A DNA stretch of 64,000 bases. It comes from Kineococcus xinjiangensis (lineage in GTDB: Bacteria > Actinomycetota > Actinomycetes > Actinomycetales > Kineococcaceae). The notes under the pieces were generated by a model. The model was not told where the DNA came from and made no database searches. It was given only the letters and a program-made list of their open reading frames with translations. The stretch spans positions 62,001 to 126,000 of the forward strand of contig NZ_PTJD01000008.1 in assembly GCF_002934625.1 (NCBI RefSeq), in the 5' to 3' direction. Position 1 is the stretch's first letter, and each line of letters starts with the position of its first letter. Made by a program: the position numbers and the translations under genes. This document shows positions 10,387 to 14,500 of this stretch, piece after piece.

Positions 10387-11313
10387 TCAGCGGGTGGGCG
10401 CGCTGCCGCGCTCGGGGCCGGTGACGATCGGGACGCGCACCGCGTTGCCCCACTCGGTCCAGGAGCCGTCGTAGTTGCGGACCTTCTCGAGACCCAGCAG
10501 GTAGGTCAGCACGAACCACGTGTGGCTGGAGCGCTCACCGATGCGGCAGTAGGTCACGACGTCGGTGTCGGCCTGCAGGCCGGCCTCGCCGAAGTAGATG
10601 CCCTCCAGCTCCGCGCGCGGCTTGAAGGTGCCGTCCTCGGCGGCCGCCCGCGCCCACGGCACGCTCGCGGCACCGGGGATGTGCCCGCCGCGCAGGGTGC
10701 CCTCCTGGGGGTAGTCGGGCATGTGGGTGCGCTCGCCGGTGTACTCCTGCGGGGAGCGCACGTCGATGAGGGCGCCGCCGAGGTGGGCGAGCACGTCCTC
10801 CTTGAAGGCGCGGATCGCGGAGTCGTCGCGCTCGACGACGGGGTACTCGGTGCGCTCGCGCTCGGGGACCTCGCGGGTGTACTCGCGACCCTCGGCCTCC
10901 CACTTGGTGCGGCCGCCGTCGAGCAGGCGCACGTCGGCGTGCCCGAAGAGGGTGAACACCCACAGCGCGTAGGCGGCCCACCAGTTGTTCTTGTCGCCGT
11001 AGAAGACGACGGTGTCACCGCGGCTGATCCCCTTGCGGGAGAGCAGCTCCGCGAACCCCTCGGCGTCGAGGTAGTCGCGGGTGACGGTGTCGTTGAGCTC
11101 GGTGTGCCAGTCGACCTTGACCGAGCCGGGGATGTGGCCGGTGTCGTAGAGCAGGACGTCCTCGTCGCTCTCGACGACGACGAGACCGGGGGTGCCCAGG
11201 CGCTCCGCCAGCCACTCCGTGCTCACGAGGCGCTCGGGGTGCGCGTACTCGGCGAACTTCGGCTGGGTGGTGTCCGCCGGCTGGGCGCTGGTGCGGTCGT
11301 CGGTCTGCGTCAT
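10387..11313 (-). CDS. sseA: Thiosulfate sulfurtransferase (rhodanese)
   Basis: This 308-residue enzyme has two rhodanese domains, about 25-145 and 165-300. Rhodaneses transfer the outer sulfur of thiosulfate or a similar donor to a thiophilic acceptor. The catalytic loop is in the second domain, Cys256 in CRIGERSS, the form typical of actinobacterial CysA/SseA proteins; the first domain has no cysteine at the matching place (YGDKNNWW). ATG 11313 follows a GAGGAG ribosome binding site. The gene has a leader of about 380 bases that contains a SAM-I riboswitch, a 31-codon leader peptide with three Cys codons and a large hairpin, which ties it to sulfur and methionine status. Confidence 0.93.
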
Positions 11314-11422
11314 GCGTCTCTCCTCGTGGGCTGGTGCGGTGAACAACTGGTTCGGGTGGGACGGTCCGGGGCGCGCCGGGGCGGGGTTTCCGCACGCAGC
11401 GCCGCACCGGCCCGGGCGGGTG

Positions 11423-11479
11423 CCACCGGGCGCCCGCGCCCCGTCGGGGGCGGGAGCGCCCGCAGGCGCGGCCCGGTGG
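11423..11479 (-). promoter_or_regulatory. Possible attenuator hairpin in the sseA leader
   Basis: CCACCGGGC at 11423-11431 pairs with GCCCGGTGG at 11471-11479, and the enclosed GC-rich stretch can pair further. The structure lies between the leader peptide stop (11501) and the sseA start (11313), where an attenuator would be expected. There is no T-run, so Rho-dependent or translational action is as likely as intrinsic termination. Confidence 0.4.
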
Positions 11480-11500
11480 TTCGGGAACGCGGCGGGAACG

Positions 11501-11596
11501 TCAGCGAGGACAGGCGGTGGTGACGCTGCGGCACAGGTCGATGTGCCGACGGCGCCGGTGGCGCAGGCGCCGGCACTCCGCGGAGAGCCCCGTCAT
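11501..11596 (-). CDS. Cys-containing leader peptide with HIDLCR motif
   Basis: A 31-codon reading frame starts at ATG 11596 with a strong GGAGGG ribosome binding site six bases upstream. The peptide is arginine-rich in the middle and ends with RRHIDLCR (residues 16-23) followed by SVTTACPR; Cys occurs at 8, 22 and 29. Short peptides with a C-terminal HVDLCR/HIDLCR motif are known upstream of sulfur genes in actinobacteria and are thought to sense cysteine supply through ribosome stalling. Here the peptide lies between a SAM-I aptamer and sseA. Its ribosome binding site overlaps the 3' strand of aptamer helix P1. Confidence 0.75.
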
Positions 11597-11605
11597 CAAT
11601 TCCCT

Positions 11606-11691
11606 CCATCGTCCCTGGCAGGAGCACCCGCACCCGAATCGGGGGGTTGCTGCGGCGTCGTCGAGCCAGGACTCTCGGCCGCTCTTGATGG
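11606..11691 (-). promoter_or_regulatory. SAM-I (S-box) riboswitch of the sseA leader
   Basis: The minus strand carries the S-box core in order: P1 CCATC, then AGAGCGGCCGAGAG and CTGGCTCG (P2 side), GCCGCAGCAACC (P2/P3 junction), GGGTGC closing P3, and CCAGGGAC before the P1 partner GATGG. The P1 arms at 11687-11691 and 11606-11610 are perfectly complementary. A promoter lies just upstream. The bases after P1 form a GGAGGG ribosome binding site, so ligand binding should hide it. Confidence 0.88.
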
Positions 11692-11702
11692 TTGTCGGGG
11701 CA

Positions 11703-11733
11703 AAGGTAGGCGGTGGAGGGCCGGTGCTGTCAA
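11703..11733 (-). promoter_or_regulatory. Promoter of the sseA leader RNA
   Basis: On the minus strand a perfect -35 TTGACA (11733-11728) and a -10 TACCTT (11708-11703) are 19 bases apart. Transcription would start near 11696, a few bases before the riboswitch. Confidence 0.65.
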
Positions 11734-11764
11734 CTCCACCGCCGGCCCGGCACCGGTGCGGCCC

Positions 11765-12631
11765 TCAGCCGCGCCGGCGCCCGACGATCTGCCAGGACCG
11801 CGCGGTGCGCAGGTACGGCTCGCGGTCGCAGGCTGCGAGCTCCAGCCGCTCGAGGTCGGCGTAGAAACCCGGCTCGGCCTTGCGGCGGTCGTCGTCCACG
11901 AGGTCCGTGAAGCAGCGGATGCCGAAGCGGAAGTCGACGCTGCAGCGGGCCTCGACCAGCGCGGCCTCCGCCAGTTCGGGCGAGACGCGCTGCACCTCCC
12001 GGTCGAGGACGGGGTCGTGCGCGGCGGAGGCGTCCAGCAGGTGCAGCGCACCGGGCAGGTCGTGGCGGCGCACCACGGCGGCCATCACGTCGCCCGCCGG
12101 GTTGGAGGCGAGCAGGGAGACGCAGCCGCCGGGACGCACCGACGACACGAGCGTGGCGATGTCCGCGCGCACCCGCGCCTCCCCGCCCGGCCGGTGCTGC
12201 AGGACGTCGTGGCAGAGGACGAGGTCGAAGGATCCCGATCCACCGGCCCGGAAACCCGTCAGGGCGGCCAGCGCGGTGAGGTCCTCCAGGTCGGCGTCGA
12301 CGGTGCGGACGCGGTCGGCGACGCCGGCCGCGGCGGCGTTGGCCCGGGCGCGCTCCAGCAGGACCGGGGAGGTGTCGAGGACGGTCACGCGGCAACCGCG
12401 GCGCGCCAGCGCGATGGCGTCCGTCCCGTCGCCGCCACCGGCGTCGAGGACCCGCAGCGGGCGCCCGGAGACGGTGCGGCAGACCCGCTCCAGCGTGTGG
12501 TCGACGATGCGGTACCGCAGCCGGCCCCAGGGGGCGCCCTGCCAGCCGGACCAGCCCGCGATGTCCTCGACGAGGGCCGTGGGCAGGACCTCCCCGTCCC
12601 CCGGGACACCGCCCGCGCGCTCTGCCGGCAC
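11765..12631 (-). CDS. SAM-dependent methyltransferase, CmoM-like
   Basis: This 288-residue class I methyltransferase has the SAM-binding motif VLDAGGGDGTDAIALARRG, the acidic loop VTVLDTSP and the motif IV region FDLVLCHDVLQH. The order of later elements (SVRPGGCVSLLASNPAGDVM, then FRFGIRCFTD and REPYLRTARSWQIVGR) closely follows CmoM, the tRNA uridine-34 carboxymethoxy methyltransferase, so that is my best guess; other substrates remain possible. GTG 12631 has a GGAGG motif just upstream; a GTG at 12646 is the alternative. It lies directly upstream of the SAM-I controlled sseA leader but has its own start and is not under the riboswitch. Confidence 0.82.
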   Translation of the reverse strand: MPAERAGGVPGDGEVLPTALVEDIAGWSGWQGAPWGRLRYRIVDHTLERVCRTVSGRPLRVLDAGGGDGTDAIALARRGCRVTVLDTSPVLLERARANAAAAGVADRVRTVDADLEDLTALAALTGFRAGGSGSFDLVLCHDVLQHRPGGEARVRADIATLVSSVRPGGCVSLLASNPAGDVMAAVVRRHDLPGALHLLDASAAHDPVLDREVQRVSPELAEAALVEARCSVDFRFGIRCFTDLVDDDRRKAEPGFYADLERLELAACDREPYLRTARSWQIVGRRRG

Positions 12632-14391: not shown

Positions 14392-14402
14392 GGTCGTTCC
14401 CT

Positions 14403-14490
14403 CCATCGTTCCCGGCGGTAGCACCCGCGCCCGCGCTGCGGGGGGTTGCTGCGGCGTCGTCGAGCCAGGTCTCTCGGCCGCTCTGGATGG
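14403..14490 (-). promoter_or_regulatory. SAM-I (S-box) riboswitch before the GNAT gene
   Basis: The same S-box elements as at 11606-11691 occur here on the minus strand: P1 CCATC (14490-14486), AGAGCGGCCGAGAG, CCTGGCTCG, GCCGCAGCAACC, GGGTGCTA, GCCGGGAAC and the P1 partner GATGG (14407-14403). The central 45 bases differ from the first copy at a single position; the P3 loop has diverged. GGAGGG follows P1 and serves the GTG start at 14391. Confidence 0.9.
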
Positions 14491-14500
14491 TTGCACCGTC

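Follow-up and report, generated by a model that had tools for sequence, protein, structure and literature searches.

The sulfurtransferase gene sseA in the 64,000-nucleotide stretch of Kineococcus xinjiangensis DNA that we analyzed (the window) is preceded by a leader in which a SAM-I riboswitch aptamer is followed by a short, conserved, cysteine-containing peptide. We believe, with a probability of roughly 0.62, that this is a two-input leader RNA: SAM would gate translation of the peptide, and a ribosome waiting at one UGU codon of the peptide would open sseA, so that the gene is on if SAM and cysteine are both low. Both halves, the SAM-I aptamer and the Cys leader peptide, are already known. 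In the open-access literature we found no description of the two joined together.

Read 5' to 3' on the minus strand, the order is promoter, SAM-I aptamer, 31-codon open reading frame (ORF), gap and sseA, and positions 11501-11733 run from the stop codon of the peptide to the -35 box. The promoter, recognized from its sequence, has a -35 box TTGACA at 11733-11728 and a -10 box TACCTT at 11708-11703, which ends 8 nt before the aptamer; the spacer is 19 nt, and because of this spacing a strict sigma-70 scan missed it. Promoter-like sites directly 5' of the aptamer were found for 44 of 124 SAM-I elements, compared to 1.4 in shuffles. An outer helix around P1 (GCCCCG/CGGGGC) was considered and rejected, as its full transcription is improbable with the -10 box ending so close to the aptamer. 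The peptide ORF runs from an ATG at 11596 to a stop ending at 11501 (31 codons plus the stop) and has Cys at codons 8, 22 and 29. The HIDL codons of its conserved RRHIDL motif are at 11545-11534, and the conserved Cys codon, a UGU at codon 29 (11512-11510), follows the Asp by 9 codons and precedes the stop by two sense codons; this is the proposed sensor codon. After a gap of 187 nt comes sseA (ATG at 11313, to 10387), which encodes a sulfurtransferase related to 3-mercaptopyruvate sulfurtransferase and has its own Shine-Dalgarno (SD) sequence, GAGGAG, at about 11325-11320.

Between the peptide and sseA there is a 57-base GC-rich hairpin at 11479-11423 (-44 kcal/mol). The initial annotation listed the promoter, the aptamer, the peptide with Cys at 8, 22 and 29, the hairpin and sseA, and we located all of these on the minus strand. 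The hairpin is not a fixed part of the arrangement, given that the leaders of two other sseA genes of the family (L285 and L286) have no such hairpin. It can also be ruled out as a terminator: it lacks a U run and is not conserved, so the hairpin and U tract that follow the leader ORF in a classical intrinsic-terminator attenuator do not occur together here, and no terminator-like site was found anywhere in 11250-11850. Taken by itself, the leader does not fold more stably than its shuffles.

The aptamer (11694-11603, minus strand) matches the Rfam SAM-I (S-box) model RF00162 at 54.6 bits and an E-value of 7.9e-10, where the gathering cut-off is 44.4 bits, and it has the aptamer fold, the conserved core and the pseudoknot in common with that family. 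Unlike the norm for RF00162, the start codon under apparent control belongs to a regulatory peptide and not to the metabolic gene. The 3' arm of P1, GATGGAGG (11610-11603), includes the sequence GGAGG, which is the SD of the peptide, and the ATG lies 6 nt further on. Because the SD is itself part of the P1 arm, ligand-stabilized P1 would mask the peptide's ribosome-binding site and not the one of sseA, which agrees with the earlier suggestion that the aptamer is placed to shut off the peptide. The same arm is identical in 26 of 37 peptide-linked elements, with variants in the others, and the start codon is 3-12 nt past the aptamer in every one of the 37 peptides examined.

A check for covariation in relatives had been proposed, and the aptamer came through it well. 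We aligned 38 peptide-linked aptamers, covering P1, P2, P2b, P3 and the P2-loop pseudoknot. P2, P2b, P3 and the pseudoknot are paired in all 38, with changes on both sides at two P2 pairs and at three of the five pseudoknot pairs, while slid controls of the same alignment are only 28-55% paired. The inner 5 pairs of P1 are constant and never broken; the outer three are weak and often broken. Throughout the order to which the Kineococcaceae belong, whichever start codon comes first 3' of P1 seems to be the one on which a SAM-I element acts. For about three in ten of them that start codon is the one of this peptide. The remaining elements directly precede either a gene (for rhodanese, an ABC ATPase, a luciferase-like protein, metF and others) or a short ORF of a different type.

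To see how general the arrangement is, we searched 99 genomes of the order, which yielded about 133 SAM-I elements, and analyzed 124 of these together with their downstream DNA. An ORF with the peptide motif starts 0-20 nt after the aptamer in 36 of the 124, counted with a regular expression (R..[HV]VDL type) that we composed after viewing these peptides; NF042934, an independent NCBI model, matches 25 of 33 SAM-linked peptides with E-values down to 1.4e-8. Two or three further composites (L149, L234, L195) are evident by eye. The composites stem from several families of the order, and many of the leaders share descent, so that fewer than 36 fusions will have been independent. Open frames are common in very GC-rich DNA, and a chance ORF beside a riboswitch therefore has to be considered. 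Shuffling the downstream sequence gave a mean of 0.175 motif ORFs and a maximum of 1 in 40 runs, and the motif occurred at none of 720 other sense positions and none of 1247 antisense positions. With 36 observed against 0.2 expected, with the codon and the spacing fixed, and with the arrangement recurring before other sseA genes, we regard chance as so improbable that it is ruled out. Lack of conservation of the peptide in relatives had been named as a refutation of the proposal, but the peptide is conserved: three further family genomes have the arrangement in front of sseA, and in the order it precedes many other genes.

The genes 3' of the composites encode sulfite/nitrite-reductase-like proteins, Cys/Met PLP enzymes, a flavin reductase, a luciferase-like monooxygenase, ABC ATPases, solute-binding proteins, an FAD-NAD(P)-binding protein, an isochorismatase, an aminotransferase and SseA. 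They mostly fit sulfur acquisition, and a few do not clearly do so. Outside the order there was no composite in about 47 SAM-I elements, a limited sample biased to high-scoring elements; two 'HVDL' matches there are located in long frames and were discarded, as they are not short motif-bearing leader ORFs. We noted that the high-scoring SAM-I elements from other orders of the class (L290-L339) nearly always stand in front of what, by eye, is a threonine synthase-like gene, and have the P1 arm AGATGAGGA or a similar one.

The peptides share the consensus RRRHVDLxRxxSxxCR. In 33 aligned peptides the Asp is invariant, and in more than 90% of them a Cys stands nine residues after it. At V, L and R the residue is kept although the codon changes, indicating selection at the level of the peptide. 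The Cys behaves differently: in 33 of 35 SAM-linked peptides the conserved Cys is encoded by UGU, while the non-conserved Cys codons of SAM-linked peptides are UGC in 35 of 36 cases (Fisher 1e-16). Among 35 distinct SAM-linked peptide cores, 31 have UGU. In a class-wide search we obtained 27 peptides of the NF042934 type, and a simple pattern detected no evident SAM-I core close upstream of those 27, which lie outside the order. Their conserved Cys is UGU in all 27, and their other Cys codons are 13 UGU and 48 UGC. When both sets are pooled, 60 of the 62 peptides use UGU for the conserved Cys, and the other Cys codons of the same peptides are UGU in 14 of 97 and UGC in 83 of 97; the Fisher p of 1.7e-27 comes from related sequences and should thus be read as the strength of the contrast, not as a probability.

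From this pattern we take UGU to mark the sensor codon, and it points to a cysteine sensor that would operate at the level of the codon. Cys at positions 8, 22 and 29 had been given equal weight; the positions stand, but the decisive Cys would seem to be the last one, the UGU at codon 29. UGU and UGC are normally decoded by one tRNA, so slower wobble decoding is a likely reason for UGU to have been kept. RNA pairing with the Asp codon was tried as another explanation for UGU, and it breaks down wherever a base other than C comes next. On the evidence of these sequences, the conservation of UGU in such peptides is new. A single Cys codon is all that 14 of 37 peptides have, and one of the 37 (L123) has no Cys at all. 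In five SAM-linked Cys leaders without HVDL (L189, L213, L190, L219 and L220) the last Cys codon is likewise UGU, and these are possibly a second type of Cys leader. Two of them, L189 and L213, are similar in sequence (RTS[HY]RxRV...).

In a search for SseA in 12 genomes of the family Kineococcaceae, a copy of sseA with the SAM-I and peptide leader was found in four: the window, L284, L285/L136 (leader peptide MQHRTSRAPRRRPGRPFHARSRRVVDLCRRASSACR) and L286 (leader peptide MQHRTPCVPARHFHASNRRVVDLCRRCSSACS). Rfam confirms SAM-I in L284, L285 and L286. It finds none in L283, which is a second SseA in the genome of the window (C5:19968-20870), 82% identical and with neither aptamer nor peptide. 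A copy of sseA with neither part is present in all 12 genomes, either in addition or as the only copy. The leader, present in four genomes and absent from the other sseA copies, thus marks one regulated paralog. The SseA of the window is up to 79% identical to actinobacterial orthologs, and among 80 orthologs from other actinobacteria none had an aptamer-peptide leader before sseA. One further locus (L155) had been suggested as an sseA case by its peptide, and its gene turned out to encode an aminotransferase.

We propose that the leader works as follows. Plentiful SAM would bind the aptamer, P1 would form, and the peptide, its SD hidden, would go untranslated. When SAM is low, the peptide would be translated and the ribosome would arrive at the UGU. 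If charged tRNA-Cys is scarce, the ribosome would wait there, near the stop codon, and would prevent the leader's end from pairing with the region that silences sseA, or from exposing that region to Rho; with ample cysteine it would finish and leave, and sseA would be silent. The output would be that of an AND gate, the sulfur gene being on only at low SAM and low cysteine. That the aptamer binds SAM, that control has this sign, that cysteine is sensed and that a stalled ribosome opens sseA are inferences from the sequences compared. As to the sign, the other SAM-I elements here that lie directly before gene starts would silence the gene, so an untranslated leader should mean 'off'.

How the waiting ribosome would reach sseA can be approached through predicted folding. 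In the predicted fold of the window, UGUCCUCG (11512-11505, minus strand), which begins with the UGU, pairs with the sseA ribosome-binding site at about 11326-11318 with a probability of about 1.0, and a ribosome on the UGU would therefore free that site. The predicted cost of opening the sseA SD drops from 6.9 to 2.0 kcal/mol with a stalled ribosome. This helix does not appear in the folds predicted for the other three sseA leaders. When 32 leaders are taken together, a stalled ribosome cuts the predicted opening cost of the main SD from 6.2 to 5.0 kcal/mol (p 0.008), a drop not greater than that in shuffled gaps (p 0.15). Any output signal has to bridge gaps between peptide and gene of 39-271 nt.

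A variant compatible with the two-input leader is that the C-rich gap is a site of Rho-dependent termination, which a stalled ribosome would block. In the E. coli tnaC leader, a stalled ribosome does block Rho-dependent termination. The gaps average 51% C and 30% G, with more C than G in 32 of 32, while the C/G ratio is 1.0 upstream of the promoters, and the lack of an intrinsic terminator in 11250-11850 would also fit. Rho has been proposed for mycobacterial cys leaders (Seliverstov et al. 2005, PMC1262725), but such leaders have also been described as working by translational attenuation (PMC13236596). Base composition is in any case a weak argument by itself, and the downstream coding regions are likewise C-biased (1.21). 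We regard termination by Rho as a serious alternative for the output step, though less likely than not.

The leader might instead have a single input, with SAM-I controlling a short ORF whose translation couples to, or protects, the downstream gene and with no role for cysteine. There are precedents for this: at metF, both in this genome and in relatives, the SAM-I element is followed by a short ORF that runs into the gene's start or right up to it, and a riboswitch-controlled uORF acting by termination-reinitiation has been reported (Kipkorir et al. 2024, PMC11260477). Yet gaps of 39-271 nt exceed the distance for simple coupling, and the metF coupling ORFs are unconserved and without UGU (the one in this genome, L002, has three UGC), in contrast to the HVDL and UGU kept in the peptides described here. 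Relatives of these peptides also precede other genes with no evident SAM-I, and altogether we think a leader without a cysteine input improbable. About equally improbable, in our opinion, is an arrest peptide, in which nascent RRHVDL in the exit tunnel would halt the ribosome on the Cys codon when a small molecule, or Cys itself, is sensed. It would account for the invariant Asp and for the HVDL-Cys distance fixed at 9 residues, neither of which a plain hungry-codon attenuator needs, and for the frequency of peptides with a single Cys codon (14 of 37). What it does not account for is that the synonymous choice of UGU is as conserved as the residues, which suggests decoding, and that SAM-linked Cys leaders without HVDL (L189, L213, L190 and L220) end in UGU as well.

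Among known leader peptides, a close one is NF042934, a putative leader peptide labeled 'cis_reg_atten', which has the RRHVDLxRxxSxxC motif in common with the peptides studied here; its family model, unlike the present leader, carries no riboswitch. The window peptide has the RR(H)(V/I)DL motif of this type and a Cys nine residues past the Asp, near the stop, but it scores 19.4 bits (18.2 from the ATG) where the cut-off is 27, and we therefore call it a relative and not a formal member. Two models of mycobacterial Cys-rich leader peptides, NF042936 (Ms4527A) and NF042933 (Ms5788A), match 10 and 7 of the 33 peptides. For cys operons of actinobacteria, preceding Cys leader peptides were already suggested in 2005 (PMC1262725), and cysteine-responsive short ORFs of M. 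smegmatis were reported by Canestrari et al. 2020, whose work we cite through the accounts given in PMC9031893, PMC9094748 and PMC13236596. According to those accounts, the mycobacterial polycysteine sORF attenuators are likewise Cys peptides before sulfur genes, with related sequences, but they are leaderless and have runs of Cys codons, whereas here translation would start behind an SD that is part of an aptamer helix, and the Cys codons do not adjoin one another. The window peptide has no polycysteine run, only Cys 8, 22 and 29, and it is probably not leaderless, with a predicted promoter upstream of the aptamer and an SD present.

A parallel for a riboswitch acting on a short translated uORF that governs a gene is the B12 riboswitch of the M. 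tuberculosis ppe2 leader (PMC11260477). In that case the uORF overlaps the gene start and works by termination-reinitiation, and no amino-acid sensing is described. The Salmonella mgtCBR and mgtA leaders (PMC3641672) also combine leader ORF translation and a metabolic signal in one leader, but with other signals and with unrelated architecture and peptides. In the SAM-II metA leader of Sinorhizobium (PMC9373788), a start codon further away depends on the SD of a SAM riboswitch; the aptamer is of another class and there is no Cys leader peptide.

Riboswitches and leader peptides are usually studied as alternatives, and here one would gate the other, repeatedly and with conserved geometry. If so, the composite is an RNA logic element with two inputs that occurs in nature in numerous versions, which can be compared. 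The near-invariant UGU bears on an old question about attenuation, whether regulatory codons are chosen for slow decoding, beyond the amino acid that they specify. The UGU peptide also flags, genome by genome, likely cysteine sensors among the unannotated short ORFs before sulfur genes. A wider reading, which we hold tentatively and at slightly below even odds, is that this lineage has repeatedly wired an expanded SAM-I family to older cysteine leaders, giving an AND-gate regulon in which low SAM would permit a cysteine sensor to be read, the sensor being a dedicated, wobble-read UGU codon, perhaps assisted by an HVDL arrest segment, that has been kept throughout the class despite strong GC pressure.

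We noted several other loci of these kinds. The window has a second SAM-I aptamer at 14400-14493 (minus strand, 52.0 bits), which has no leader peptide and lies directly before a gene that looks like a GNAT acetyltransferase (about 14390 to 13753). Elsewhere in the same genome, the metF aptamer (L002, C4:122255-122349) is followed by an 18-codon ORF, MNCTCPAAGRACPREVRP, which shares the letters GTGA with the start of metF; in relatives the short ORF before metF has no Cys, so the ORF of L002 looks like a coupling ORF. A SAM-I-like element just under the Rfam cut-off (L004, C8:49578-49674) is directly 5' of a rhodanese-like gene, a pairing that recurs across the order. HVDL-type leaders without SAM-I precede a TauE-like transporter gene (L005, C8:138170) and a nitrite/sulfite-reductase-like gene (L006, C3:109660), both named by eye. 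In genome G180, a SAM-I element and an HVDL peptide (C5:84567-84695 and 84807-84863) are arranged divergently, about 110 nt apart.
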